Origin: Planctomycetota bacterium
GTDB taxonomy: Bacteria > Planctomycetota > Phycisphaerae > UBA1845
NCBI GenBank assembly: GCA_030616775.1
Contig: JAUWWQ010000040.1
Location: 1 to 40,239, forward strand
DNA: 40,239 bases
Direction of reading: 5' to 3'
Below the pieces are notes generated by a model. That model searched no databases, was not told where the DNA came from, and saw only the letters and a list, made by a program, of their open reading frames with translations. Position numbers and translations under genes: made by a program. Positions 106 through 38,425 of this stretch are shown here, in pieces (position 1 is the stretch's first letter; the number at the start of each line of letters is the position of its first letter).

Positions 106-1572
106 ATGAAATCAATCAAATATATTATTACATGTTGTGCCTTAATGATTGTGATTGGGATGTCGGCTCATGCTCAACAGGAAGTGGTGACTTCCAAGGG
201 GAAATTCCCTTTAGATGCAAAGGGGGCCCCCGAAAAGGAAACTATTAAGGCGCTCTTTGACGAGATGGATTATCAGCGTGCGGTTCAGACCTATTTGTGG
301 GCGATGCCGCAGATGGTTGTTGCGGGTCAGCATAGGTTAAATCAGTTCTACGGCGCAAAGGGAAATCTGGATTTCCTTCACCAGTACAAAGACCCGTCGG
401 TTCCAGGCATGCTGACTCCGAACACGATCGTGAAGTACGTAGTGAACTTGTGCAACCTGACAGAGACGGGACCTGTTGTCCTGGAAATGCCCGGAGGACG
501 CCTAGTAGGGCTGATGATGGACTATCAGATGAGGTGGGTCACGGACCTTGGACTTGTATCCAAAGCAGGAGTTAGCCCGGAGAAGGTCGTGTTCATCGGC
601 CCAAACCAGACACCGCCGGACGGCGCCCTGGCTAAGGGTTGGCGAATTGAACGTGTGCAAACCCACGTTTCCTTCCTGGGCATCCGTGTGTTGAACCCTG
701 AAGAAGACAAGGGACTCGGTCGGAAAATTCGGCTCTACCCATGGTCGCAGCGTCAGAATCCCCCGAAAAACAAAGTCTTTCAGGCGAAACCGGATGACGA
801 GACCTTCTTCATCGCCCCGCCCAAGGGCATGGCCTATTGGGAGAGTCTGAACGAGATTGTGCAGCAGGAGCGCGTTCTGGAAGTAGACCGCTACTTCATG
901 AGCCATTTACAGGCGCTGGGGATCGAAAAGGGAAAGCGTTTCAATCCTACCGCGCGTCAGAAGGACATTATGAAGCGCGCAGCCTTCATCGGTGACAAAA
1001 TGGCCATGGTGGCGTCCTTCGTACCGCGCTCCCCCCAGGCTAAGTATCGGGATGATACGACCTGGACGCACCCACTCACCCTTCACCCGCTCCACATGAC
1101 GGAGTTTACACAGCAATTCGAAGAGCGCGTGGATTGGACTTACGAAGCTTACGGGCTATCTCCTGCGATGAAAGCAAAGGTTCCGGGGAAGGGCTCCACC
1201 TATCTGGCTGCCTATCGGGATTCTCAAGGAAACTGGTTGGACGGCGGGAAGGCCTACACGTTCAAGGTAGCGCCCAACCCTCCTGCAGCGCAGTTCTGGG
1301 CCTGTACGGCGTATGATTTCGACACGCGCGGCGTGCTTCTGAACGGAGAGGAACATCTCACGGAAATCAGCACGTACACGAAGGGGTTGAAAAGTAACGA
1401 GGATGGATCCGTGGACATCTATTTCGGCCCCAAGGCTCCCAAAGGAATGGAGTCTAACTGGATCAAGACCAATCCGGGGGGCTACTGGTTCGCGTACTTT
1501 CGGCTCTACGCCCCTACGGAACGCTACTTCGACCGCTCGTGGCCAATGTACGATATCGAGCGAATCAAATAA
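106..1572 (+). CDS. Secreted DUF1254/DUF1214 domain protein (paralogue A)
   Basis: A 488-aa protein with a Sec signal peptide (about residues 1-24, ending SAHAQQ), so exported to the periplasm or beyond. Next comes a DUF1254-type N-terminal half (about 50-180) and a DUF1214-type C-terminal half (about 340-485, with FWACTAYDFDTRG, DIYFGPKAP and the closing RLYAPTERYFDRSW block). Families PF06863/PF06742 have no settled biochemical role. The start is supported by GAGGAGA at 94-100. It is the first complete member of a tandem family; the next member starts 23 bp after its stop. Its 5' half looks more AT-rich than the rest of the cluster. Confidence 0.85.
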   Translation: MKSIKYIITCCALMIVIGMSAHAQQEVVTSKGKFPLDAKGAPEKETIKALFDEMDYQRAVQTYLWAMPQMVVAGQHRLNQFYGAKGNLDFLHQYKDPSVPGMLTPNTIVKYVVNLCNLTETGPVVLEMPGGRLVGLMMDYQMRWVTDLGLVSKAGVSPEKVVFIGPNQTPPDGALAKGWRIERVQTHVSFLGIRVLNPEEDKGLGRKIRLYPWSQRQNPPKNKVFQAKPDDETFFIAPPKGMAYWESLNEIVQQERVLEVDRYFMSHLQALGIEKGKRFNPTARQKDIMKRAAFIGDKMAMVASFVPRSPQAKYRDDTTWTHPLTLHPLHMTEFTQQFEERVDWTYEAYGLSPAMKAKVPGKGSTYLAAYRDSQGNWLDGGKAYTFKVAPNPPAAQFWACTAYDFDTRGVLLNGEEHLTEISTYTKGLKSNEDGSVDIYFGPKAPKGMESNWIKTNPGGYWFAYFRLYAPTERYFDRSWPMYDIERIK

Positions 1573-1595
1573 CAAATGAAAGAAGGGCCACAGAA

Positions 1596-3053
1596 ATGAA
1601 AACAAGCAAACTGCGACAAACTGCGAGCACCGTCATTGCCTTGGCGCTTACATTGAGTATGAGCACAACAGCCTTCGCACAAGATTTCGAACCGAAATAC
1701 ATCGGCGGGTATCCCACCGAGGAAACCGCAGAGGCCATGTTCGAGGAATACGACTATCAAGCCGCGGTGCAGTTCTACATCTGGGGTTATGCTTACCTCA
1801 ATAGTCTGGGTTGGGAAAAAGGCTGCGCCAGGATGGGTGGCGACGAGCGGTCGTTTTACCATTGGGACAAACGGGTTCAATCTCAACACGTCGTCATGAC
1901 AGCCAACGCCGAGGTCATCTACAACTGGGCTCGATACATTGACCTGTCGAAGGGGCCGGTCGTGTTTGAGGTGCCCCAGCGGTGCCGCGGCCATTTCTAC
2001 GACATGGGCATGCGCGCTTACGTCGATGTCGGGGATGTCGGCCCCGACAAAGGCAAGGGCGGGAAATACCTGGCTGTATCTGCCGACTACAAGGGGGAGA
2101 TTCCGAAGGGCTACTTCGAGGTGCGCTCGGAGTATTCGGACCGGATCCTCCTCGGTTTCCGCTCATTCCCGGCAGCCGAAGGAAGCGATGAAGCCGCAGT
2201 CGAGCTCGGCACGCAGGCCAAGTGGTACTACCTCTCCGAGGCTAAGAACCCACCGAAGAACAGCCACATAATGATCGGCGATCGGCCGTTCTCCCAGGAA
2301 TGGCCAAGGGACGAGGAGGCTTTCGCCTGGCTCGCCGAGGTGTTCAATATGGACAAGGTTCCCGCTTCGGGACTGGCGCACATGGGCAACATGCGCAGAC
2401 TTGGGCTAGAAAAGGGGAAGCCCTTTGCGCCCGACGCTCGTGCAAAGAAGATCCTGAAACGGGCAGCGAAGACCGCTGAAGCGATGGTCCTGTCGATGGC
2501 CTTCCGAAACCGGCAGGACGCCCGGATCTACGACAACCGCCAGTATGAGAGATATGCCCTCAACAGCAGTCCGATTTTCTTCCAGGAGCATTACGAAGAA
2601 GTAGAGGAGCGTGCCGGTGGATGGCATCAGCTGGTGGGGAACTTTGCCACCTACACGCCTGCCAAACCTGGCACGGGTCAGTTTTCGATGACTAACTACC
2701 GTGACAAGGACGGCAATGCCTTGATCGGCTCCCATACCTATAGAATACACGTACCTGCCAAGGTGCCGGTAAAACAGTTCTGGCAGATCCCCGTGTACGA
2801 AGTGGCAACGCGATCCATGATCGCCACCGACCAGAAGAAAAGCGCGCTCTCGAGCACGCAGGACCTGCAGAAGAACGCCGACGGCTCGGTCGATCTCTAT
2901 TTCGGCCCGGAACTGCCGGAAGGTGTGAGCGAGAAGAATTGGATCAAGACGATTCCGGGTGAGGGCTGGTTCACACTGCCCAGGCTCTACGCGCCCCTCG
3001 AACCGATTTTGGACAAGACGTGGCGGTGGAACGACATCGAGCGGTTAAAGTAA
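1596..3053 (+). CDS. Secreted DUF1254/DUF1214 domain protein (paralogue B)
   Basis: A 485-aa exported protein with the same DUF1254-DUF1214 architecture as its neighbours. I chose ATG 1596: it gives a clean signal peptide (basic MKTSK, hydrophobic core, cleavage near TTAFAQ) and has AGAAGG at 1581-1586. An upstream in-frame ATG at 1539 would overlap the previous gene and add a charged stretch before the signal. The C-terminal blocks FWQIPVYEVATRS, DLYFGPELP and RLYAPLEPILDKTW are shared with paralogues A and C. With the following barrel gene it forms the left copy of a duplicated DUF1254-barrel-cytochrome unit. Role unknown; probably a periplasmic enzyme or binding protein acting with the adjacent barrel. 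Confidence 0.85.
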   Translation: MKTSKLRQTASTVIALALTLSMSTTAFAQDFEPKYIGGYPTEETAEAMFEEYDYQAAVQFYIWGYAYLNSLGWEKGCARMGGDERSFYHWDKRVQSQHVVMTANAEVIYNWARYIDLSKGPVVFEVPQRCRGHFYDMGMRAYVDVGDVGPDKGKGGKYLAVSADYKGEIPKGYFEVRSEYSDRILLGFRSFPAAEGSDEAAVELGTQAKWYYLSEAKNPPKNSHIMIGDRPFSQEWPRDEEAFAWLAEVFNMDKVPASGLAHMGNMRRLGLEKGKPFAPDARAKKILKRAAKTAEAMVLSMAFRNRQDARIYDNRQYERYALNSSPIFFQEHYEEVEERAGGWHQLVGNFATYTPAKPGTGQFSMTNYRDKDGNALIGSHTYRIHVPAKVPVKQFWQIPVYEVATRSMIATDQKKSALSSTQDLQKNADGSVDLYFGPELPEGVSEKNWIKTIPGEGWFTLPRLYAPLEPILDKTWRWNDIERLK

Positions 3054-3264
3054 TCAGCTAACAAGGTCATGCACAGGATGGCTTCTGGGGGTCGAGCCTA
3101 GTCCATAGTGAGGATAAGCTCACGACAAGTTGCGCGGTTGGGCGATGAAGCGCCGCATAGTGGCCTGGAGCCATGCATCGGTTTACAACGAACGAAATCG
3201 AGATAGGGGAGTGTCCGGAACCGCCGCCAACGCTCCGGACCAGGGTCTTGCTCGGAGAAGGATC

Positions 3265-4164
3265 ATGCGAAAGCTGCGCACGACTGTTATTGGCGTTTGT
3301 TGTCTAGCCCTCACATGCTTTCCGGCTTTGGCTCAGGAAGGCGATGCAACAAGCGCCGGGGAAGCATCAGCCGGTGAGCTGGCCAAGAAGACGCAGAACC
3401 CGGTCTCCGATCTGATTAGCGTTCCGTTTGAAAACAGTTTCGGCTTCGGGGCGGGAGCCGACGGCGAGTTCCGGTACGACCTGATCATCAAGCCGGTCAT
3501 ACCGATGTCGATCAACGAGGATTGGAACTGGATCAACCGGGTCATTGTGCCCGTGTCATCCCAACCGAACATGGGGTCACCCGGCCGCCGCCCCTCCATC
3601 CTACGGGCGTTGCCGAGGCCGGTGGTCTCGGCGATCTCTCGCCAAGACTTCGGCGAGGCCTGCGGGCTTGGCGATGTCCAGTACCAGGGCTATCTATCAC
3701 CAGCCAAGCCGGGCAAGTTCATCTGGGGTCTCGGACCGGTGCTGGAGTTTCCGACCGCGAGCGAGGATGAACTCGGCACAGAGAAGTGGTCCGCGGGTGC
3801 CGGGTTTGTCGCCCTGCGCATGGACGGCCCGTGGGTGTATGGCGGGCTCATCAACAACATCTGGTCGTACGCCGGTGACGGCGATCGACAACATGTCAAT
3901 CGAATGACGCTCCAGCCCTTCGTCAACTACAACTTGCCGGAGGGATGGTACCTCACATCGTCGCCCGTCATCACGGCCAACTGGGAAGCTGACAGTGACG
4001 ATGCATGGACGATCCCGGTCGGCGGCGGATTCGGGCGGATCGTCCGGATTGGCAAGTTACCGGTGAACTTCAGCCTTCAGGGCTTTTACAACGTCGAGAA
4101 GCCCGACCCTGCGCCGGATTGGTCGCTTCGCTTCCAGTTTGCGTTTCTGTTTCCGAGGGGCTAG
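3265..4164 (+). CDS. Outer-membrane beta-barrel protein ('neuromedin U'-annotated transporter-like family)
   Basis: A 299-aa protein with a signal peptide ending PALAQ. The body has the alternating aromatic/polar pattern of an outer-membrane barrel: blocks like NPVSDLISVPFENSF, IKPVIPMSINEDWNWI, PGKFIWGLGPVLEFPT, ADSDDAWTIPVGGG and a C-terminal strand ending in FLFPRG. These blocks match a family often (misleadingly) labelled 'neuromedin U' and related to the MetA-pathway-of-phenol-degradation barrels, common beside DUF1254 genes. ATG 3265 was chosen over an in-frame ATG at 3130 because it is preceded by GGAGAAGG (3254-3261) and starts the signal peptide. Likely passive uptake of a hydrophobic or anionic substrate (inference). 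A deleted copy is at 6069-6224. Confidence 0.8.
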   Translation: MRKLRTTVIGVCCLALTCFPALAQEGDATSAGEASAGELAKKTQNPVSDLISVPFENSFGFGAGADGEFRYDLIIKPVIPMSINEDWNWINRVIVPVSSQPNMGSPGRRPSILRALPRPVVSAISRQDFGEACGLGDVQYQGYLSPAKPGKFIWGLGPVLEFPTASEDELGTEKWSAGAGFVALRMDGPWVYGGLINNIWSYAGDGDRQHVNRMTLQPFVNYNLPEGWYLTSSPVITANWEADSDDAWTIPVGGGFGRIVRIGKLPVNFSLQGFYNVEKPDPAPDWSLRFQFAFLFPRG

Positions 4165-4184
4165 AGCGGATGGACGGCTGAACC

Positions 4185-4283
4185 ATGTTTGATGTGCGTC
4201 GCATTCTGGGTGTGCACGTCTTCGCACTACTACTGGTGTCTACTCCGAGTGCGTCGCGTGCCAAGCCAACCGTCCCCGATTGA
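4185..4283 (+). pseudogene. Relic: 5' end of a duplicated octaheme-cytochrome gene
   Basis: An ORF of 32 codons whose first 25 or so align with the signal peptide of the cytochrome gene at 6228 (relic VFALLLVSTPSAS; intact VLALLLVSISSAL). Identity extends upstream through the end of the barrel gene: CTAGAGCGG follows the barrel stop here and recurs at 6204-6212. The copy stops at TGA 4281 and no heme motif follows, so it is a truncated duplicate rather than a functional peptide, although a short secreted peptide cannot be excluded. Confidence 0.7.
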
Positions 4284-4332
4284 ACGCTGATCATTGACAT
4301 GGTTCGCAACAACCCAAAAAAGGAGAACAACC

Positions 4333-5895
4333 ATGAGCTACTCTGAAAGCCGACGACACGAAACACGGGTCGGCGGCATGAGAAAGATTCTTCTAATCGC
4401 AGGATTGCTGGCGGCAGGGGGAGCTTCCAGCGTCGCTGGTCCGCCGACACCAGGCTACAACAACAAGATCCCAGAATCGATCATGACCCCGGACAAGGTG
4501 GAGACGAGGATCGGCACCCTCGAATTCTTCGACGGCATCCCCACCAAGAAGACTGCCGCGCTGCTCTACGACAATCTCGATTTTCTTCGCGGCGTGGAGA
4601 CTTTTCTGAACGGGCTGCCTGCCGCCTCGCTGGACGCGCTGCGGCTCGGTCTGGCGGCTCTCGGGGCCAGGAATTCGAACCAGGTCGTGATCTTTGATCA
4701 GCTGATGGACAGTAATCCCCTGTTTCTCACCGGCAACACCAGCACGGTCTACTGCGTCCCCTTTCTCGACCTCAAGAAGGATGGCCCGACGGTGGTCGAG
4801 ATCCCCGCGGGGGCCGGCCCGGGAACGGTCAACGACGCCTTCTTCCGCTTCGTGATCGACATGGGCCCTCCCGGTCCCGACAGGGGTAAAGGCGGCAAGT
4901 ACCTGATCCTTCCGCCCGATTACGAGGGTGACGTCCCTGACGGCTACTTCACCGCTAAGTCAACGAGCTGGGTGAACTGGGTCGCCCTGCGTGGATTCCT
5001 CGTTGACGGCAAGCCGGACGCAGCCACCAAGATGTGGAAAGAAGGCCTGAAAATCTATCCCCTCGCCAAGGCGGCGAATCCCCCGGCGATGGAGTTCATC
5101 AGCGGCTCCAAGAAGAAGTTCAACTCCATTCATGCCAATGACTACCAATTCTTCGAAGAACTCCACACCGTCATCGATCGCGAGCCGATCGAGATGCTCG
5201 ACCCCGAGTTGCGTGGACTCTTCTCGGCCATCGGTATCCAGAAAGGCAAGCCCTTTGCCCCGGATGCCCGGATGAAGAAGCTGCTGACTGAAGCGGTTGC
5301 GGTGGGCAACGCGACCTCGCGTACGATCTTCTGGTACGAACGCGAAGAGTCGGCGTTCCTTTATGAGGGCAGCTACTGGAAGAGGGGCTTCGTCGCCGGG
5401 AACTACGAGTACCTCGTGGACGAGGGCATGGGCGGGCGCAATCTGGATGCGCGCACCCAGTTCTACTACATGGCGACGGTCAACACGCCGGCCATGACGT
5501 GGAAGTTGATCGGCAAAGGCTCACAGTACGCCTGGGGCTATCTGGACGCGAAGGGCAACTACCTCGACGGCGGCAAGACCTACAAGCTGAACATACCCAA
5601 GGATCCTCCCGCCGAGAAGTTCTGGTCGGTGGTGGCCTATGACCCGCAGACCCGCTCCGAACTCCAGACCAGCCAGCCCTTCCCAAGCAAGCAAAGCCAG
5701 CGCGACAAGATGATCGTCAACGACGACGGGTCGATCGATCTCTATTTCGGACCCGAAGCACCAGCCGGCAAGGAGGCGAACTGGACCCAGACTGTTCGCG
5801 GCAAGGGCTGGTTTTCCGTCTTGCGTCTCTATAGTCCCACCGAGGCATGGTACGACAAGACTTGGCGCCCGGGCGAGATCGAGCTGGTGAAATGA
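4333..5895 (+). CDS. Secreted DUF1254/DUF1214 domain protein (paralogue C)
   Basis: A 520-aa member of the tandem family. ATG 4333 has AAGGAG about 9 nt upstream (an A-rich run then GGAG at 4321-4325); an in-frame upstream ATG at 4294 has no such site. The N-terminus has about 15 extra hydrophilic residues before a typical signal (MRKILLIAGLLAAGG), so an internal start at 4378 is possible. DUF1254-like half about 60-230, DUF1214-like half about 380-515 with FWSVVAYDPQTRS, DLYFGPEAP and RLYSPTEAWYDKTW. It belongs to the right copy of the duplicated unit and is followed by the barrel relic and the intact cytochrome gene. Biochemical role unknown. Confidence 0.85.
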   Translation: MSYSESRRHETRVGGMRKILLIAGLLAAGGASSVAGPPTPGYNNKIPESIMTPDKVETRIGTLEFFDGIPTKKTAALLYDNLDFLRGVETFLNGLPAASLDALRLGLAALGARNSNQVVIFDQLMDSNPLFLTGNTSTVYCVPFLDLKKDGPTVVEIPAGAGPGTVNDAFFRFVIDMGPPGPDRGKGGKYLILPPDYEGDVPDGYFTAKSTSWVNWVALRGFLVDGKPDAATKMWKEGLKIYPLAKAANPPAMEFISGSKKKFNSIHANDYQFFEELHTVIDREPIEMLDPELRGLFSAIGIQKGKPFAPDARMKKLLTEAVAVGNATSRTIFWYEREESAFLYEGSYWKRGFVAGNYEYLVDEGMGGRNLDARTQFYYMATVNTPAMTWKLIGKGSQYAWGYLDAKGNYLDGGKTYKLNIPKDPPAEKFWSVVAYDPQTRSELQTSQPFPSKQSQRDKMIVNDDGSIDLYFGPEAPAGKEANWTQTVRGKGWFSVLRLYSPTEAWYDKTWRPGEIELVK

Positions 5896-8666: not shown

Positions 8667-10127
8667 ATGAGAAAACCCGGATGTTTTCTGCTTAGCGTTG
8701 TCGCGACATTGTTCATTATTTGCCCCATTGTTGCGGCCCAATCGGATGATCGCCCCAACATCGTCCTGATCTTCATGGACAACTTTGGCTGGGGAGAGCC
8801 CGGCTTCAACGGCGGGGGGATCATCCGCGGAGCACCGACGCCCCGGCTCGACACTTTGGCGTCCGAGGGTCTACGCCTGACGAACTTCAATGTCGAATCA
8901 CAATGTACGCCATCGCGGGCCGCGATCATGACGGGCCGGTACGCGATCCGAAGCGGCTGCGGCAAGGCGCCGCAGGGCGGGGGTGTGTACGGGCTCGTCC
9001 AGTGGGAATACACGATGGCCGAGATGCTTTCGGACGCCGGGTATGCCACGGGCATGTTCGGTAAGTGGCACCTGGGTCGCACGGAGGGCCGGTTCCCCAC
9101 AGACCAAGGCTTCGACGAGTGGTACGGGATACCCAACTCGACCGATGAAGCGCCATACACCGACCTGGAGGGATTCAACGAGAGCGGTCTTCCGGAAGCC
9201 TCGTTTGTCATGGAAGGGAAGAAGGGCGAGACGCCTGAGGAACTGCATCCATACCGTCTCGACTTCCGCCCCTTGATCGATAAGGTCATCACGGAAAAGT
9301 CGATCGCCTTCATGAAGAGGCAGGTGGATAGCAAGAAGCCGTTCTTCCTGTTTGTCCCCTATACCGCGACCCACTACCCGACGATGCCGCATCCGGAATT
9401 CAAGGGTAAGTCCGGCAACGGCGCCTGGGCCGACCTGCTAATGCAGATCGACGCGTATACGGGGATGATCCTGGATACGATCGACGACCTGGGTATTCGT
9501 GAGAATACCATCGTCATCTTCACCGCTGACAACGGGCCGGAAGCGTCACAGGGCACCAACACGCTGACCGTCGAGACCAGCTTCCAGGGCACTGCCGGCC
9601 CCTGGCGAGGGACGCTGTTCACTGGATTCGAGGGCGCCCTGCGCGTGCCGTTTGCCGTCCGATGGCCGGGTAAGATTCCTGCCGGGAGCGCGAGCGATGA
9701 GATCGTGCACGAGATGGATCTCTTCCCGACCCTCGCAAAGTTCGCTGGCGGCAACGTGCCGGACGACCGGCCGTTTGACGGAATCGACATGGCTGATTTC
9801 TTCCTCGGGAAGACAAACAAGTCCGGCCGCGAGTCTGTCATCGTCTACATGGGCAATGACGTCTACGGGGTCAAATGGCGCAACTGGAAGCTCAACTTCA
9901 AGGAACTGGATACCATATTCGGCGAAGTGAAAAGCTACGGCATGCCCAAGCTCTATAACCTGTACAAGGATCCGGGGGAGCGCGAGAACGTGTTGTTCCC
10001 CAATACGTGGGTGCCGAAGGCGGCCATGGCTCATCTGTTGCAGCATGTCGGTTCGCTGAGAGCCAACCCGCCCATTCGGCCCGGCACGCCGGACCCGTAT
10101 TCACCGCCTCAGGCGGGAAGGCAATGA
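8667..10127 (+). CDS. Sulfatase (arylsulfatase-like, formylglycine type), exported
   Basis: A 486-aa member of the sulfatase/alkaline-phosphatase superfamily (PF00884). Signal peptide about 1-24; the metal motif near residue 38 is the DN variant (FMDNFGWGE) instead of the common DD; active-site C80-T-P-S-R84 fits the C/S-x-P-S-R formylglycine-conversion motif; TGRYAIRSG follows it; a second metal motif reads FTADNGPE. It hydrolyses sulfate esters in the periplasm or outside; the particular substrate is unknown. ATG 8667 was chosen because AGGAG (8654-8658) sits 8 nt upstream and it begins the signal peptide; an in-frame ATG at 8634 has no such support. It needs a formylglycine-generating enzyme encoded elsewhere. 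Confidence 0.9.
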   Translation: MRKPGCFLLSVVATLFIICPIVAAQSDDRPNIVLIFMDNFGWGEPGFNGGGIIRGAPTPRLDTLASEGLRLTNFNVESQCTPSRAAIMTGRYAIRSGCGKAPQGGGVYGLVQWEYTMAEMLSDAGYATGMFGKWHLGRTEGRFPTDQGFDEWYGIPNSTDEAPYTDLEGFNESGLPEASFVMEGKKGETPEELHPYRLDFRPLIDKVITEKSIAFMKRQVDSKKPFFLFVPYTATHYPTMPHPEFKGKSGNGAWADLLMQIDAYTGMILDTIDDLGIRENTIVIFTADNGPEASQGTNTLTVETSFQGTAGPWRGTLFTGFEGALRVPFAVRWPGKIPAGSASDEIVHEMDLFPTLAKFAGGNVPDDRPFDGIDMADFFLGKTNKSGRESVIVYMGNDVYGVKWRNWKLNFKELDTIFGEVKSYGMPKLYNLYKDPGERENVLFPNTWVPKAAMAHLLQHVGSLRANPPIRPGTPDPYSPPQAGRQ

Positions 10128-31009: not shown

Positions 31010-31250
31010 CGCACTATGCTCGCACGTCCAGGAAGCCGCTCACGGTCCACGAATTGCGGCCACAGTTCAACGTCGCTTCACGTAGATGCTAGCGGAACCA
31101 CTGATCGTCCGCCATCCCCGCGCGTCGTGGGCGTTGGAGGGTGGCTGCGCCGCTGCCTCGATTCGGCGGAACCGAAGTGAGGGCGTGGCAACCGTACCCC
31201 ACAGCGTTCATCATTACTGTTTGGGAGCGTCGTGCGCGTTTTCGGCAGTG
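31010..31250. other. Non-coding stretch between the sigma-factor gene and the island
   Basis: About 240 bp without a credible ORF. It should contain the promoter of the minus-strand sigma-kinase operon; no clear sigma-70 -35/-10 pair was found, which would fit autoregulation by the ECF factor but does not show it. The island's left repeat begins at 31251. Confidence 0.4.
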
Positions 31251-31454
31251 GTTAGCGTAGAAGAGTTGGCCAAAAAGTTGGTCAGTCTCCACTTGGTGGT
31301 CACTTGTCAGCCACTCGGACTTCAGGTTGTCAATCAGTTGTAAACCTCATTTTCGGCCGAAAAACGCGTTGTAAGTCCTTGGAAACAAAGGACTTGCGCG
31401 CCGACTATCGGATTCCCAAGCTGGACGTCGGCGGTTCGAATCCGCTCGCCCGCT
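31251..31454 (+). repeat. Left 204-bp direct repeat (attachment-site copy with integrase 3' remnant)
   Basis: It aligns without gaps over 204 bp with 36130-36333; the last 96 bp (31359-31454) are identical and the first 108 have scattered changes. It ends with a 42-nt tRNA-Gly 3' half. Read on the minus strand it also encodes the integrase C-terminal tail found in the right copy (about 39 residues with the same TGA), but the upstream integrase gene is absent. It is therefore an attR-like junction left by an integrative element. Confidence 0.8.
31413..31454 (+). other. tRNA-Gly(CCC) 3' half (att core, left copy)
   Basis: 42 nt: anticodon loop TTCCCAA, anticodon-stem 3' strand GCTGG, variable loop ACGTC, T stem-loop GGCGG-TTCGAAT-CCGCT, acceptor 3' strand CGCCCGC and discriminator T. 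The 5' half is absent, because the preceding bases do not pair with GCTGG or CGCCCGC. This is a fragment, not a functional tRNA gene. CCA is not encoded. Confidence 0.8.
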
Positions 31455-31853
31455 ATCTTCTTTCATTTCAACGACTTACGCCAATCCCGGCCCGTTCGCC
31501 CTTGGCTCGGCGTCAGCCCGCAAACCGCCTTCTGAGTCCGTGAGGGGGGCTATACGACTGCCAGCTCGGGAGGCTGGACGTCGTCCCATTGCGCCGCACG
31601 AGACGTGGCCGTATCTCCTTGCCAGAAAACCACTTACAGTCAGGGTCCAGCGCCACTCTGAGGGCCACGAGAAACGAGTGGGTCAGTTTCCAACCGATCT
31701 GCGCAGCTCTGCCCCCTGGGCAGTCTGCCAACAGGCCACCGTCCCCTGAGAGCCGGTAAGCGATCATCGGCGAAGATCTCTGAGTAGTAACTGTCGCGGG
31801 AGGACTGGAGCGGCACGTGATGCGTCATGGCGGCCAGGGAGGCGACAAATATG
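31455..31853. other. Left arm of the 4.9-kb segment, no credible gene
   Basis: About 400 bp between the left repeat and the radical-SAM promoter. In a typical tRNA-integrated element the integrase would sit here. No recombinase motif is visible on either strand; minus-strand open frames (for instance around 31640-31990) have no ribosome-binding site or recognisable domain. This probably represents deleted element sequence. Confidence 0.4.
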
Positions 31854-31882
31854 TTGACAGTGCGTTCGGGATACGTTAGGAT
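31854..31882 (+). promoter_or_regulatory. Sigma-70-type promoter of the radical-SAM/methylase pair
   Basis: TTGACA (31854-31859), a 17-bp spacer and TAGGAT (31877-31882). The -35 is consensus and the -10 matches four of six positions (TAtaAT). It would give a leader of about 75 nt before GTG 31963. It is the best promoter-like sequence in the window and is within the repeat-bounded segment, so the two genes carry their own promoter. Confidence 0.5.
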
Positions 31883-31962
31883 GAATTGCTCCGGGCAGCC
31901 GTTCTGCACGAGGAGCGGGAGCGGCGTCGCAGTCGTTCGACTCGCCCCTGGGGACATAGCTG

Positions 31963-33156
31963 GTGACTCCACGACCTCCAGGACGCGCACGTACAGGATC
32001 TCAGCCCAGCGAGTCGCGCTTTGCGCATGCGGACTTCGCCGCCGATTACCGTCCTCGACGTCCAGCTCACTTCAATCCCAGACGCATCATCCTGACCAAG
32101 GGGAGCTTCAACTGTGCCACACGTCGAGACTTCATCGAACGGCTTTGCAGACTCTACCCCGAGGCCCAGGTCATCGAGCAACTGCACCTGCCGCACAACC
32201 GCGTAAACTTAGGGATCGCCGACCCCGTGGCGCTCCACCATTCGGGCAAGCAGACACTGGTCATCGGCGAGCATCGAACTGCGGTACGGCTCAGCGAAGA
32301 ACACGGGAACATGTGTCCCAACTACTGGCACTTCTCGCCGTATGGGTTTTGCCCCTTCGATTGCGCCTACTGCTACCTTGCGGCGACTCCAGGTGTGAGA
32401 TTCTCGCCAACCGTCAAAATCTTCGTAAACCTCTCCGAAATGCTCGCCAGTATCGATCGCATCGCACGGAAGCTCACTCAGCCAACCGCCTTTTACCTGG
32501 GGAAGCTACAGGACGGGCTGGCTCTCGACCCACTAACCGGGTATTCCCGAGTAATGGCCCCTTTCTTCGCGTCCCATCCGTACGCGCGTCTCGTCCTACT
32601 TACAAAGGCCTTGGATGTCCAAAACCTGATGGACATCGAACACCGAGGACAAACGATACTGTCTTGGAGCCTCAACCCTCCGGAGGTCTGTGGCCAGTTC
32701 GAAATCAACACTCCCGCGCCAGCGGAGCGTATCGAGGCGATGCGCCGGTGCGCCGCAGCCGGCTATCCCATCCGCGCGGTCATCATGCCGACCATCCCGA
32801 TCGGCGGTTGGCGCGTCGTGTACGGAGCGTTCCTACAAGAACTCATCACTGCTGTTCCCCTCGCGCGCATCACGCTCGGAGGCATATGCAGTTACGACGG
32901 AGCTCTGTCACTTACGGAAGCCAAGCTTGGGCCGGGAAACACCGTCTCTCAGGCAGTTGATCGTTCCAGGTCCAAATCGGTAGACGGTCGACGGCGTTAC
33001 CTGGTGAGCGAGCGAGTGGAGATGTACCGGCATTTGATCACGACAATTCGGCGTATCGATCCGCGTGTGGCAATCGCGTTATGTCTCGAGGAACGCACCG
33101 TCTTTGAGGCGTTGAAGATGACGGCCAGCGTCGGCCGCTGTAACTGCGTGCTCTGA
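31963..33156 (+). CDS. Radical-SAM protein of the spore-photoproduct-lyase (SplB/COG1533) family
   Basis: 397 aa from GTG 31963 (GGGGA about 8 nt upstream). The radical-SAM 4Fe-4S motif is C130-x3-C134-x2-C137 (CPFDCAYCYL). Flanking blocks align with spore photoproduct lyase: QTLVIGEHRTAVRLSEEH before the cluster; VKIFVNLSEMLASID, LDPLTGYSRVMAPFF, ARLVLLTKALDVQNLMDIEH, ILSWSLNPPEV and ERIEAMRRCAAAGYPIRAVI after it. The Cys that donates hydrogen in SPL (CTSD context, Cys141 of B. subtilis) corresponds to Lys181 here, so it is not expected to repair spore photoproduct in the known way. The C-terminus ends GRCNCVL, offering alternative thiols. It precedes the methylase-fold gene by 25 bp. Probable reaction: a radical modification or repair of a nucleic acid, unspecified. 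Confidence 0.85.
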   Translation: MTPRPPGRARTGSQPSESRFAHADFAADYRPRRPAHFNPRRIILTKGSFNCATRRDFIERLCRLYPEAQVIEQLHLPHNRVNLGIADPVALHHSGKQTLVIGEHRTAVRLSEEHGNMCPNYWHFSPYGFCPFDCAYCYLAATPGVRFSPTVKIFVNLSEMLASIDRIARKLTQPTAFYLGKLQDGLALDPLTGYSRVMAPFFASHPYARLVLLTKALDVQNLMDIEHRGQTILSWSLNPPEVCGQFEINTPAPAERIEAMRRCAAAGYPIRAVIMPTIPIGGWRVVYGAFLQELITAVPLARITLGGICSYDGALSLTEAKLGPGNTVSQAVDRSRSKSVDGRRRYLVSERVEMYRHLITTIRRIDPRVAIALCLEERTVFEALKMTASVGRCNCVL

Positions 33157-33181
33157 ACATATCGCTCACGGTCATTACCTG

Positions 33182-35599
33182 ATGAAGATGCCGTCTACTT
33201 CGAAAGTCGCGATTCCTGTGCACAGGGGCCTGCCGGCGCTTGTGGACGGTGCGGCCTGCATGGACCCCGCTCAGATGAGTCACTTTGTCGCTCTTCTCCG
33301 CAAAGTACGCACGAAAATGGCGGGTGACTGGGCCGATGCTTGCAGTAAAGCCCGTCGGCAGGCGACCGTCGTGCGGGCCGTGGATGACTTGATATCCTTC
33401 GTCCTTCTTACTGAGTACGTTCGCCAGCGCGACCGTGATGCGCTCCCATGTCTCAAGGATATCCTCTCGGCGGCCAGACCGCTATCAGCCCGTCGGTTGT
33501 TCACTACGGCCAAAAAGACAACACGATCGAAGCTACTCAGGGCGGTGTTCGCGGTGCGCAACCCTGTAAGTGGCCTTTCGATTCCAAAGTCATTGAGAGT
33601 GGACGAGCTGTGTGCCGGACTTGTAAGAGGGATCCACAGAGCCTTTCCATCAGGCATGCCGGTGTCGGCGTTTGGCACTTTTCGTCTTCTGAGTTTTGAG
33701 GACCCCATTCTCGCAGGAAGGGCGTGTGCCGCACCGAGGCGGCGTGTGAGCCCAGAACGTCACGCGAAGGGCATCTACTACACACCTCCGGCTCTGGCAG
33801 ATTACTTGACGCACACGTCGTTGGGACACGCGCTCGAGCAATCACATTACACCCCATTGGGCATTCGAGTCCTTGATCCAGCGTGCGGTTGCGGCGTGTT
33901 CTTGATTGCGGTGCTGCGACTTCTGATCGCGTGGCTTGTACGTGGCGAACGTGCCAACGATACGCATCGACGGCACATTCGGAACAAGACCGGCATGCAC
34001 AAGAACCAGCATTTGCGCACGCTCCTGCAGTCACTCGGCTCAACGATCCAAGGAGTAGACACTGATGGGCAAGCTCTTGAGTGGACTCGCCGCTGTCTGT
34101 ACCTGACGTTCTGGGAATCCACCCGGTGGTTTACGCTGGCTAACAGCCACACCTCCCCGCTGGTTGCGCCAGACTTCGGCAAGGCCCTTACCCAGCTCGA
34201 TTTCCTCGATGCAGAGGGAAGAGCGCGCGGCCGACGCCGACTTCGGTTGTTTGACAGGTTCGATGTTGTCCTCGGTGCTCCTCCCTTCCTTCGTATCGAG
34301 GAAGTGCATTCGCAGCAGTCCGACCACCTGCCAGAGTATCGACGGATGTTCCGCACCGCGCGTGCCGGCCAGTTTGACCTGTACATGCTGTTTGTAGAGA
34401 GGGCCATTAGGCTCCTGAAGCCTGGAGGAACATTGGGCTTTAGCATGTCCGGCAGCTTCCTGCGCAGCCGAACCGGCAAGGCTCTTCGAGATATTCTTGG
34501 ACGCGAAGGCCGCGTCAGTGAGATTGTCGAGTTTGAGAGTCGGAACATTTACCCAGACTGCACATCACATGTCTGCCTTTTGTCGTTTCAAAAGGGGCGG
34601 ACGCCACGGAGCCCGCGGTACGCGACTGTAAAGAGCAGCACTGACGTGCGAGCCACTCTCGCACGGTTTCGTCGGAGGAGGGGATCAGTGCGTGGCGTGG
34701 AGTCGCACCAGCCGCGCATTGATTTCGCGGATTCTGATGTTTGGAGGCTTGAGCCCTCCCGTGACGCCCGCCTACTTGCACGCTTGGAGAGGACCGGCAC
34801 AGCCCTCGCCGACCTTCCTATCGCCATCAATCTTGGCATCTGCACCGGGGCAGACGACGTCTTCGTTCTGCGTCGCATGTCCTCAGCCGCAGGGGATCTT
34901 CTGCGCGCGGAGCGGACGGTCGCTCGGGAGGAGCATGTGCTCGAGGTGGCCGCAACACGTCCCTTGCTGCGGGGAAGGGATCTTGCCGGCTATACCAAAC
35001 CGAAACCCCAATGGGTGTGCGTCTGTCCGGGCGATTACGAGGGAGTCTCGCCTGTCGAACATGACATTCGGGCCATGTACCCACGGGCGTTTGCGTACCT
35101 GAAGGATCATCGAAAGGTGCTTCTTCGCCTTGCCGCCTACACCCGTAGACCATGGTATACTCTGAAACGACCAGCACGTCCGTGCGTCAGGCGAAGGGAC
35201 ATCCTGCTGAGCGGCCTGATTGCGTCCGAAGGAAGTTTTACGATCGGTTGCCTGCGGAATGTCTTGTGTCATCAAAGTGCCCTCAGGATCTCCCCCGTAC
35301 CTGACTGGATCGATCCTTACTACCTGCTTGGCGCACTCAACAGCCGCGCTATCTGGACGTTTATACGGCATCGGATGCCAGCGGTCGGCGCCGGGAGACA
35401 CGCGCTGAGGACCGGCCAGCTCAAGAAGCTACCCATCCCGCTGCCGAAATCTCCTGAGGAGGCGAAACAGTGCCGGAGGATTGCCCGGTTGGCGAGATAC
35501 CTCATGTTGGAGAACCGCGAAGCGCGTGTACGATGGTGCTGGCGCAAGGAGATCAACACGCGGGTTCTTGCGCTCCTCAGGCTGGATTCCAGCAATTGA
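33182..35599 (+). CDS. N6-adenine methylase-fold protein with TaqI-like C-terminal part; motif IV altered
   Basis: 805 aa. Residues 1-190 are helical with no visible nuclease motif (VVRAVDDLISFVLLTEYVRQ resembles the connecting helix of Type IIG enzymes). The methylase core has motif X GIYYTPPALADYL (197-209), motif I LDPACGCGVFL (231-241) and motif II/III GVDTDGQALEW. Motif IV, normally (N/D)PP(Y/F/W), is G365-A366-P-P-F369 in the otherwise standard context FDVVLGAPPFLRIEE. Helices and strands follow (FDLYMLFVERAIRLLKPGG). The C-terminal 560-790 resembles a TaqI-like target-recognition region (LLRGRDLAGY, YYLLGALNSRAIWTFI, LKKLPIPLP). It should bind DNA and SAM, but without the catalytic Asn/Asp adenine methylation is doubtful. 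Likely partner of the upstream radical-SAM protein. Confidence 0.85.
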   Translation: MKMPSTSKVAIPVHRGLPALVDGAACMDPAQMSHFVALLRKVRTKMAGDWADACSKARRQATVVRAVDDLISFVLLTEYVRQRDRDALPCLKDILSAARPLSARRLFTTAKKTTRSKLLRAVFAVRNPVSGLSIPKSLRVDELCAGLVRGIHRAFPSGMPVSAFGTFRLLSFEDPILAGRACAAPRRRVSPERHAKGIYYTPPALADYLTHTSLGHALEQSHYTPLGIRVLDPACGCGVFLIAVLRLLIAWLVRGERANDTHRRHIRNKTGMHKNQHLRTLLQSLGSTIQGVDTDGQALEWTRRCLYLTFWESTRWFTLANSHTSPLVAPDFGKALTQLDFLDAEGRARGRRRLRLFDRFDVVLGAPPFLRIEEVHSQQSDHLPEYRRMFRTARAGQFDLYMLFVERAIRLLKPGGTLGFSMSGSFLRSRTGKALRDILGREGRVSEIVEFESRNIYPDCTSHVCLLSFQKGRTPRSPRYATVKSSTDVRATLARFRRRRGSVRGVESHQPRIDFADSDVWRLEPSRDARLLARLERTGTALADLPIAINLGICTGADDVFVLRRMSSAAGDLLRAERTVAREEHVLEVAATRPLLRGRDLAGYTKPKPQWVCVCPGDYEGVSPVEHDIRAMYPRAFAYLKDHRKVLLRLAAYTRRPWYTLKRPARPCVRRRDILLSGLIASEGSFTIGCLRNVLCHQSALRISPVPDWIDPYYLLGALNSRAIWTFIRHRMPAVGAGRHALRTGQLKKLPIPLPKSPEEAKQCRRIARLARYLMLENREARVRWCWRKEINTRVLALLRLDSSN

Positions 35600-35837
35600 A
35601 GGACGGTCGCCCTTCCTCGAGTGTACAGCGGTAATCGCAAGTAGCCGATGGTCGGGTGCGCATTCGAAAGGCGAACCGAATCCGCTTCCCCTTGGGCCTG
35701 TTCTTCAGGACCCGCTTCTCCACGTGGATGCATGCGATCACGCCCTGCTGCCGAAGGAAGAGTTTCTCCGCGGCCAACTCGGCTTGGCTGCGGAGAAGCG
35801 ATCGAAGAAAGATGAGGATCACCTGTATCCAACCCAT
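35577..35837 (-). pseudogene. Degraded N-terminal fragment of an IS-type transposase/integrase-core protein
   Basis: An 86-codon frame whose first 30 residues (VILIFLRSLLRSQAELAAEK, then LFLRQQ) match the common start of rve-type transposases (hydrophobic helix, then RS.....LALENLALRQQ). The catalytic DDE core is missing and the remainder has no similarity I recognise. It overlaps the last bases of the methylase-like gene on the other strand. Probably the stump of an insertion sequence; no terminal inverted repeats were found. Confidence 0.5.
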
Positions 35838-35961
35838 GCTTCGCTCAAAACCCCTTTACGTTAGTACAGACGTGAAGAGCCACGAACGTAGCGGCGTCCG
35901 AGGGCGGGTCGATTGCAGATGGCTGCGGACATGCCAGAGACCGCGGTTTTGATGCCCCGAT

Positions 35962-36017
35962 CGGGTCTTCAGGACCCACAGGTCGAGAGGTCGCTGGTTC
36001 GAATCCAGTCGGCCCGA
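35962..36017 (+). other. Second, different tRNA 3'-end fragment (relict att site)
   Basis: A T stem-loop GCTGG-TTCGAAT-CCAGT (35993-36009) is followed by an acceptor-type strand CGGCCCG and A (36010-36017). Upstream lies GGGTC-TTCAG-GACCC, but no matching 5' acceptor CGGGCCG or D arm exists in the preceding 80 bp, so it is not a complete tRNA. The minus-strand frame across it reads GPTGFEPATSRPVG, the kind of tail produced when an integrase gene reads through the complement of a tRNA. The tRNA identity is not determinable from this piece. Confidence 0.5.
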
Positions 36018-36129
36018 AAGGTGCGCTTGGGCGAGGAATCCAGAGCATGTCTTCGAGCAGACGTCGCTTGTCGATTAGCTACCGCCGTCATCAACCGCTC
36101 TGCGAGTGTTTTGTCTGGTTTAGGTAGAG

Positions 36130-36333
36130 GTTAGGGTAAAGGAGTTGGTCAGAAAGTTGGTCAGTCTCCACTTGGTAGTGACTTGTCAACCACTCGGACT
36201 GCAGCTTGTCAGTCAGTTGTAAACCTCGTTTTCGGCTGAAAAACGCGTTGTAAGTCCTTGGAAACAAAGGACTTGCGCGCCGACTATCGGATTCCCAAGC
36301 TGGACGTCGGCGGTTCGAATCCGCTCGCCCGCT
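36130..36333 (+). repeat. Right 204-bp direct repeat (attachment-site copy)
   Basis: Gapless counterpart of 31251-31454, identical over the last 96 bp (36238-36333). On the minus strand it encodes the last 39 or so residues and stop codon of the intact tyrosine recombinase. The sequence immediately right of the repeat differs completely from that right of the left copy, so the homology ends exactly at the tRNA 3' end. That is the expected point of site-specific integration. Confidence 0.8.
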
Positions 36334-37532
36334 GTTTCGCTAAGCTCTTGTGACGCCGACACTTGCGACTCGTCGGCGTTCTTTTTTGTGTTCGATTCCG
36401 CCTCATTTTTGCCGGGTTGTGTCACAGGTTGTGTCACAACGGGAGCCAAACGTGTTCTTGCCGCCCGCACGTACTCGCTCTCCGGCACCTGGAGATAGTA
36501 CCTATCCGTCGTGTTCAGGTCGCTGTGGCCAGCCCATTCCTTTACCACGTGTGCAGGATGTCTCGCAGCCCAGTCTCGGATACAGCTCTTGCGGAGGCTG
36601 TGGATCGGCTTGGAATATCGAGGAACACCCGCACGCTTGCACAGAACTCCAAAGTCCCGCCAGATGTTCCGCACATTGATGCCCTCCGCCGGGATTACCC
36701 TGGGTTCACCCTCGTTCGCACCCTCGAAAGCGGTCAGCAGCAGCTCGCGCAGCTCAGGACACACCGGCACGATGCGGGACTGCTTGTCCTTTACATCCCA
36801 GTCTTCCCGACTGATGATCTCCAACCGACTCGCAGACCAGTCGATCTTGTCCCAGGGCAGATTCAACGCCTCACCGCGGCGTAACGCTGCAAGTCGGGCC
36901 AGGGCCAACAGCAAACGCCAGGAGATCGTTGGCGTAGCCTCAACAAGGCATGCGAACTCCTCGGGAGCCACGTAAGGCCAGTCCCGAGCGACCGGAGTCG
37001 TTGTCGACAAGCGGTCAAACGGGTTGAAGAGGACAAGGTCATCGGCAAGGGCGTGGTTAAGGATCGTTCGAGCATGGCGGATGTGCTGGTCAACCGTCGC
37101 TGGCTTGGGAATCACTCGCTGCTTGCCAGTAGAACGCCATTCTCCGCTGGCAACAGCAGCCTTGAAGCTCCGGGCATCGGCCCGAGTGATCGTATCCAAT
37201 CGGACCGTCTTACCGAGGAAGGCCGTCATCAGGTCTGCGGTACGCCGGTAGAGTTCCAGGCTACCTGTGGACAATTCACCTTTCCTTGCGGCGAAGTAGA
37301 CCTCCAGAAACGCCTCCAGCTCTGGCCCACGGGACACATCACGTCGACCCGGATTGATGCCAAGCTCAATCTCCTTGACTCGCCGCAGCTTCTCGGCCTG
37401 ACGCTTTGACATCCTGTCAACCCGCCCGATTGTCTCCCCGCGACGCTTGCCGTTGCTGGTGAACCACCGGAGGCACCAGTAAGTGTGCCCCTTGCTCTTC
37501 TGCCTGCTGAGTGTGACTGTCTGCCTCGGCAT
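36213..37532 (-). CDS. Tyrosine site-specific recombinase (phage-type integrase)
   Basis: 439 aa. N-terminal arm-binding region, SAM-like core-binding domain (about 70-165) and catalytic domain (about 185-360) with Arg218 in AALRRGEALNLPW, H311-x-x-R314 in HSLRKS, His336 in EWAGHSDLNTTD and the nucleophile in the DRYYL motif (Tyr345 or Tyr346). All catalytic residues are present. The C-terminal tail (VTQPVTQPG..., then GERIRTADVQLG) is not part of the fold: residues from about 401 are encoded by the 204-bp repeat and the complement of the tRNA-Gly fragment, so the tail's sequence depends on what is integrated next to it. The enzyme presumably uses the tRNA-Gly 3' end as its att core. ATG 37532 has no strong ribosome-binding site. 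Confidence 0.92.
   Translation of the reverse strand: MPRQTVTLSRQKSKGHTYWCLRWFTSNGKRRGETIGRVDRMSKRQAEKLRRVKEIELGINPGRRDVSRGPELEAFLEVYFAARKGELSTGSLELYRRTADLMTAFLGKTVRLDTITRADARSFKAAVASGEWRSTGKQRVIPKPATVDQHIRHARTILNHALADDLVLFNPFDRLSTTTPVARDWPYVAPEEFACLVEATPTISWRLLLALARLAALRRGEALNLPWDKIDWSASRLEIISREDWDVKDKQSRIVPVCPELRELLLTAFEGANEGEPRVIPAEGINVRNIWRDFGVLCKRAGVPRYSKPIHSLRKSCIRDWAARHPAHVVKEWAGHSDLNTTDRYYLQVPESEYVRAARTRLAPVVTQPVTQPGKNEAESNTKKNADESQVSASQELSETAGERIRTADVQLGNPIVGAQVLCFQGLTTRFSAENEVYN
36292..36333 (+). other. tRNA-Gly(CCC) 3' half (att core, right copy)
   Basis: 42 nt identical to 31413-31454: anticodon loop TTCCCAA, T stem-loop GGCGG-TTCGAAT-CCGCT, acceptor CGCCCGC and T. The 5' half of the tRNA is missing. 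It lies antisense within the integrase 3' coding region and is followed after 19 bp by a terminator on the same strand. Confidence 0.8.
36353..36387 (+). terminator. Terminator-like hairpin downstream of the tRNA-Gly fragment
   Basis: Perfect 8-bp stem ACGCCGAC/GTCGGCGT with an 11-nt loop, followed by TCTTTTTTG on the + strand. It lies 19 bp after the tRNA 3' end, where a tRNA terminator would be expected, yet it is inside the reading frame of the minus-strand integrase (codons for KNADESQVSA). It may be the retained terminator of the original tRNA-Gly gene, or it may insulate the integrase from transcription entering the element. Confidence 0.6.
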
Positions 37533-38092: not shown

Positions 38093-38425
38093 TTAACCCC
38101 GATCAGGTTTGAGCTCCAAGGCTCCGTCGATCGTTTGCAGTCGCTTGCGGATGCCGGTCACGTACATGCGGTTGATTTCGATCCCGATGGCGTGTCGGCC
38201 GTGTTTCAACGCTGCAGCAAGCGTTGTTCCGCTGCCTGCGAACGGATCGAGCACCACGTCCCCCGCGTTGGTGACGGCTCGAACGATGCGTTCCAAGATC
38301 TCCTCCGGCATCTGAGCGGGGTGCCATTTCTTCCGTCGTTTGAAGGTGCCGCAGATTCTCGGAAACTCCCACACATCTCCGGGAACCCGCCCTCTGGGGT
38401 TGGGCGCGTCTGCCGTCACCGTCAA
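38093..38425 (-). pseudogene. C-terminal half of an N4/N6 DNA methyltransferase
   Basis: 110 codons opening with a TTG; a TAG lies four codons further upstream. The visible part matches the C-terminal half of PF01555 methylases: VWEFPRICGTFKRRKKWHPA, QMPEEILERIVRAV, motif I LDPFAGSGTTLAAA and GIEINRMYVTGIRKRLQ. The N-terminal half with the catalytic DPPY-type motif and target domain is absent from all frames upstream, so this is a truncated gene. It belongs to the cargo or regulatory module of the right-hand element, with 7 bp before the broken excisionase. Confidence 0.7.

Follow-up and report, generated by a model that had tools for sequence, protein, structure and literature searches.

The 40,239-nucleotide stretch of DNA analysed here, referred to throughout as the window, is the whole of contig C90 of a 4.4-Mb genome assigned to Planctomycetota (Phycisphaerae). 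It contains a small segment (31222-36333) in which two intact genes are enclosed by two 233-nt direct repeats that are 90% identical. The first gene encodes a radical-SAM (S-adenosylmethionine) protein with the fold of spore photoproduct lyase (SPL), and the second, which begins 25 bp downstream, encodes an 805-residue protein with a DNA-methylase fold and an altered catalytic motif. The features of the segment and of its right border are as follows.

31222..31454, plus strand: left att-like direct repeat, the final 42 nt of which (31413-31454) are the 3′ half of a tRNA-Gly(CCC)

31854..31882, plus strand: sigma-70-like promoter sequence, TTGACA-17-TAGGAT (10/12), upstream of both genes

31963..33156, plus strand: gene for a radical-SAM protein of the SPL fold, 397 aa, starting with GTG (PF20903 SPL, E 2e-27; TIGR04070, E 9e-36)

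33182..35599, plus strand: DNA-methylase-fold gene, 805 aa, CamA/TaqI-like, with a C-terminal target-recognition region (PF07669, E 8e-21, 75 bits)

33875-33895, plus strand: motif I of the methylase-fold gene (the SAM motif), DPACGCG, intact

34274..34288, plus strand: motif IV of the methylase-fold gene, GAPPF, with the catalytic Asn replaced by Ala (GNPPY/F in relatives)

36101..36333, plus strand: right att-like direct repeat, with the tRNA-Gly(CCC) 3′ half at 36292-36333

36213..37532, minus strand: tyrosine integrase, lying beyond the two-gene segment but with its 3′ end running into the right repeat

An earlier note on this DNA, made from the sequence alone, had described direct repeats ending in tRNA-Gly 3′ halves around only two intact genes, and both parts of that description hold. 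A different contig of this genome carries an intact tRNA-Gly(CCC) gene (L273 8096-8167), and the final 42 nt of both repeats match its 3′ half without a difference, so that the segment has the displaced tRNA 3′ half and the intact genomic tRNA of a tRNA-targeted integrative element. It has no integrase of its own; the tyrosine integrase lies outside, to the right, and is a possible helper for its mobility. A search for an integrase remnant inside the segment turned up nothing beyond a duplicate, in the left repeat, of the 39 C-terminal residues, and a search of the window for tRNAs and known RNAs found none. The note had also claimed a single good promoter. The motif is present, but shuffled sequence yields 1.2 such sites, and since this places it at chance level, TTGACA-17-TAGGAT alone is no evidence for a promoter.

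The product of the first gene resembles SPL in its overall architecture. Its cluster motif (CxxxCxxC) reads CPFDCAYC at residues 130-137 (32350-32373), and its AlphaFold model (pLDDT 91) has SPL structures as the top match (TM 0.72/0.83; Foldseek to 4fhc, E 2e-24). The assignment to the SPL family that the earlier note made thus stands for fold and motif; the active-site residues, however, are not those of a classical SPL. Where the hydrogen-donor cysteine of SPL falls (Cys140 in Gt, Cys141 in Bs), within a gap-free part of the profile alignment, there is a lysine, Lys181, invariant in 48/48 sequences, and the score against TIGR04070 is 123.5 bits for a cut-off of 400. Because the donor cysteine is replaced and the score lies under the cut-off, the subfamily is, by these sequence measures, SPL-like rather than classical SPL. 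Five further cysteines (Cys118, Cys309, Cys374, Cys393 and Cys395) are invariant in the subfamily whatever the neighbouring gene, and could hold an auxiliary Fe-S cluster. Cys118 resides in a loop near Ser76(Gt), possibly matching the loop of Cys74, the differently placed cysteine reported for Clostridium SPL (PMC5368176), although the alignment there may be off by several residues and provides a lead only. The window gene has a dN/dS of 0.19 against a homologue of 78% identity, and values across SPL pairs range from 0.04 to 0.19. No member of the subfamily was found in viral contigs, and phage records contained only remote SPLs; plasmids, searched for both genes, contained only remote SPLs and methylases.

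The second gene is related to the gamma-class N6-adenine methyltransferases of the Eco57I/TaqI kind, with the fold and an intact SAM motif I but without the catalytic [N/D/S]PP[Y/F/W] form of motif IV. The top match of its model (pLDDT 69.7) is the CamA-DNA complex (E 2e-23), and M.BseCI, PglX and TaqI are also matched; TaqI_C itself gives a sub-threshold match. Among SPL-linked copies, motif I conforms to DP[AS]CG[CTYG]G, the CGCG form of which is also that of active CamA, and motif IV is mostly GGPPF, with GAPPF in the window, GSPPF in one copy and PP[FY] conserved. The earlier note's description of the methylase as altered is therefore borne out by motif IV, with motif I intact. The asparagine is missing in 11/11 readable SPL-linked gamma-class methylases (one of them, L112, frame-broken) versus 0/51 readable unlinked relatives (Fisher p about 2e-12, a figure that kinship among the linked sequences makes less extreme in truth). 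At class level, relatives have Asn in 35/36 readable copies, the single exception being a Ser in the linked G420 copy, and at phylum level, unlinked relatives have it in 16/16. The importance of the Asn has an experimental precedent in TspGWI, where the N473A substitution in the NPPY motif leaves almost no methylation (PMC3968444). In neither protein was a nuclease domain found, and the segment holds no other intact gene, in agreement with the earlier note's claim that an endonuclease gene is absent, and membership in restriction-modification fails for want of that nuclease. PADLOC returned only generic methylase matches and no specific system, and the anti-phage role that the earlier note raised as a possibility finds no support. 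PHROGs likewise pointed to no specific system, and the methylase had no more than remote matches in phages and in viral contigs.

The retention of motif I in its active-CamA form, together with the conserved PP[FY], would also suit an enzyme that is still a SAM-dependent alkyl transferase, acting on another atom or on an intermediate of the radical enzyme. Such a relay is proven in CC-1065 biosynthesis, where the radical-SAM enzyme C10P starts the cyclopropane and the methyltransferase C10Q completes it (PMC6050322), so that the methyltransferase fold working with the radical-SAM enzyme does something other than plain methylation. However, C10P is HemN-like rather than SPL-like, the CC-1065 substrate is a small molecule, no homology of C10Q to the DNA-methylase class is claimed, no intermediate is known here, and solitary SPL copies would be left without a finishing step. 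We consider this alternative improbable.

The association of the two genes extends well beyond the window. When 84,980 species genomes were scanned with an SPL-subfamily alignment, 78 loci emerged, mostly from Planctomycetota records; the window and one more genome bring the set to 80. A methylase-fold homologue was found directly downstream of the SPL gene in 14 of the 80, the window included, in the same order and usually 25-200 bp away; copies in L112, L115, L089 and L125 are broken or truncated, whereas L077 and L073 have both genes intact. One cultured isolate, Desulfatibacillum alkenivorans DSM 16219, has the SPL gene with a truncated methylase that reads GGPPY. Among 298 sampled genomes of the window's class, every methylase homologue below 1e-80 (those of the window, G625, G515, G556, G420 and G429) adjoins an SPL gene, as does the frame-broken copy of G352; homologues with weaker scores are methylases of the ordinary NPPY/W kind. 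Over 10 pairs, SPL distances and methylase distances are correlated (Mantel r 0.67, p 0.0006), in part driven by close pairs. The intact methylase pair L077/L067 has a dN/dS of 0.16, which rises to about 0.3 where one copy is broken; both cassette genes are under purifying selection. An apparent fused methylase of 24,770 codons in G420/L083 is not real and arises from a stretch of N in the contig sequence. A keyword search of 5.39 million open-access papers, subscription papers being outside its scope, turned up no account of the pairing.

A second arrangement parallels the first. In other SPL loci, mostly from Chloroflexota and others, the gene directly upstream encodes a fusion of a ParB domain with a beta-class methylase (PF02195 + PF01555), and its motif IV is GGPPY, AGPPY or SGPPY, with Gly before PPY in 7/7 readable copies. 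By comparison, 60 motif-IV hits in viral loci with ParB-methylase relatives have D in 43, N in 7, S in 7, C in 2 and V in 1, and G or A in none. That two methylase classes with no relation to each other share one substitution, and only beside the SPL subfamily, is the strongest evidence of a functional link, and the convergence argues for a partnership that does not involve amino-group methylation. It also bears on the possibility that the two genes are chance neighbours in decay, a degenerate orphan methylase beside a passenger. The absence of other intact genes from the segment and the decayed SPL fragments elsewhere in the genome would be expected in that case, but the pair recurs in many genomes, its dN/dS values lie well under 1 and the substitution occurs in two methylase classes, all of which contradicts it, and we regard it as scarcely credible. 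At six loci of the ParB-methylase type (L103, L106, L108, L113, L128 and L139), the SPL gene is followed by a conserved protein of about 135 aa that has no Pfam match.

Taken together, the conserved pairing and gene order, co-inheritance, purifying selection and loss of Asn in two unrelated methylase classes suggest that the pair may well constitute a two-component system that modifies or repairs nucleobases, carried as cargo by a small tRNA-targeted integrative cassette, a reading that we favor while holding it just short of probable. In such a system, the methylase-fold protein would bind a specific DNA site and flip or present a base, the amino group of which would be left unmethylated. The SPL-like enzyme would then generate a 5′-deoxyadenosyl radical and take hydrogen from the presented base or lesion, and Cys118, the C-terminal CxC or the putative auxiliary Fe-S cluster might stand in for the missing Cys140 in completing the reaction. 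Because the SPL-like enzyme also appears to act without a partner or with different ones, the part of the methylase-fold protein would be to set the choice of target rather than the chemistry. The earlier note had proposed that the methylase-fold protein targets or presents DNA to the radical enzyme; the conserved pair, the loss of Asn and the fold of a DNA-bound methylase fit that proposal better than ordinary restriction-modification, but the partner, as discussed below, is optional. Conceivably, though more tentatively, the principle is general: methylase folds that lack the methylation residue would serve as sequence-reading base presenters for an SPL-like enzyme that adds or removes a non-methyl base modification, an arrangement that would have arisen independently with gamma-class and with ParB-fused beta-class methylases and spread as one- or two-gene cassettes at tRNA and tmRNA genes.

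Several observations weigh against a two-component system. Among the 73 SPL-subfamily proteins in the tree, 35 have no recurrent partner nearby, and partnerless pairs are equally constrained (dN/dS 0.13-0.17). An altered partner acting in trans was not found in 15 genomes in which the SPL gene has no adjacent methylase, a few of them with a second radical-SAM or DUF523 neighbour; the matches there were, for the gamma class, only long proteins of type IIG size and, for the ParB family, the N-terminal half only, motif IV being read in neither. The partner labels form no clades on the SPL tree, so that an origin of the pairing in one clade is not supported, and its history could be either one gain followed by many losses or several gains. 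In addition, the methylase model is of medium confidence only, being based on 8 sequences. Since many SPL copies are solitary and constrained and have no matching partner in trans, the methylase is an optional partner.

Some of these observations are what would be expected if the SPL-like enzyme were the sole catalytic cargo and the methylase-fold protein a catalytically dead binder of DNA, one that shares no reaction with the enzyme and serves to regulate the cassette or to hide sites from the methylases or restriction enzymes of the host. Solitary SPL genes are common and constrained, the 15 genomes above show no partner in trans, and in L115, L112, L089 and L125 a truncated or broken methylase lies beside an intact SPL gene. 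Nevertheless, a plain DNA binder would not need the identical substitution twice, and the restriction of the motif IV change to methylases beside SPL, in two unrelated classes, suggests a specific catalytic relation. We therefore judge a sole catalyst with a dead binder unlikely, while taking it more seriously than the other alternatives.

The setting of the segment in the window also recurs. A tRNA or tmRNA gene lies within 2 kb of the SPL gene in 21 of the 78 scanned loci, where about 3 would be expected on the assumption of 55 such genes per 4.5 Mb, and its 3′ end faces the SPL gene in 21/21. Repeats of displaced tRNA or tmRNA halves like those of the window are also present in L080, L095, L101 and L104. 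In L101, a ParB-methylase and SPL gene are exactly bounded by tmRNA 3′-end repeats (2.9 kb), and in L104, tRNA-Met-like halves exactly bound an SPL gene and a second radical-SAM gene (3.3 kb). At the tmRNA gene of L080 (186-5123), tmRNA 3′-end repeats delimit a tandem array of one- or two-gene units of about 1.6 kb, which contain an AAA_14/DUF4143 gene, SPL alone, and DUF523 with a 220-aa protein that has no assigned family; this locus looks like a cassette array, with no integrase inside. The SPL and methylase genes of L146 are exactly flanked by 50-nt direct repeats (5757-5806 and 9518-9567) with inverted arms (AACAGAG..CTCTGTT) that are not tRNA-like and are possibly a different kind of recombination site. 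The window segment thus belongs to a family of small cassettes with att borders, which integrases acting in trans apparently move. Tyrosine integrases lie beside some of the elements (the window, L126, L141 and L119), and there is no need to cast the cassette genes themselves as integration machinery.

Proximity to tRNA genes raises the alternative that the true substrate is RNA, for example tRNA or tmRNA, and that both this position and certain neighbours reflect RNA base chemistry. DUF523, a 2-thiouracil desulfurase family (TudS) whose members desulfurate thiouridine (PMC11417400, PMC10611767), is encoded beside the SPL subfamily at seven loci (L102, L108, L123, L072, L074, L096 and L080). 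However, integration explains the position at tRNA 3′ ends, and the partners have DNA-methylase folds whose nearest structures are DNA-bound, which makes an RNA substrate a distant prospect, below even the alkyl-transferase alternative. By eye, L102 also has ParB-like, PAPS-reductase-like and terminase-like genes.

The SPL-like protein shares with SplB (TIGR04070/PF20903) its fold, the CxxxCxxC motif and the best structural match (4fhc), but differs in having Lys181 at the donor position, the five extra invariant cysteines and a score of 123 bits where the cut-off is 400. With CamA, M.BseCI and the TaqI/Eco57I-type enzymes, the methylase-fold protein shares the whole catalytic and target-recognition architecture as well as SAM motif I, while the Asn of NPPY is replaced by Gly, Ala or Ser in all readable SPL-linked members and an additional helical region (about 190 aa) is present at the N terminus. 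BREX PglX, MADS Mad2 and the type IIG restriction-modification enzymes have a related methylase domain; here there is no nuclease and no BREX or MADS partner gene, and the catalytic Asn is lost. The nearest described mobile arrangement of this kind, the radical SAM mobile pair proteins A and B (TIGR04471/TIGR04470), likewise places radical-SAM genes and a partner on mobile DNA, but consists of two radical-SAM proteins rather than one joined to a methylase fold. Its remote relatives here, far under the family cut-offs, are a gene neighbouring SPL in L091 and, in L104, the second of the radical-SAM genes.

The known routes by which bacteria modify DNA bases at specific sequences are mainly methylases, or systems of the backbone and deazaguanine kinds. 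If the two-component reading is correct, the steering of a radical enzyme by a retired methylase would add a further route, by which base changes could be placed or repaired at selected sites. It would also offer a role, open to testing, for the many SPL-family proteins that are uncharacterised. The GPP[FY] form of motif IV beside an SPL-like gene provides a simple marker for further members, and the small att-bounded cassettes are minimal units for cloning.

Other features of the window and its genome may be noted. Just left of the right repeat, at 35987-36014, is a third sequence resembling a tRNA 3′ end (79% to the repeat core), which may stem from a different tRNA and a previous insertion. 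Near the integrase, on the minus strand at 38093-38425, lies the C-terminal part of another DNA methylase (PF01555, 102 bits), apparently truncated or frameshifted. The same genome has two decayed fragments of the SPL gene (L274:2796-2888 on C41 and L275:5386-5532 on C18), the C41 fragment being 0.6 kb from a further copy of the 42-bp tRNA-Gly att core. Three genes in tandem at 106-5895 encode large proteins (about 490-530 aa), with an extra gene between the second and third; the first matches DUF1214, and the other two are alike by eye.

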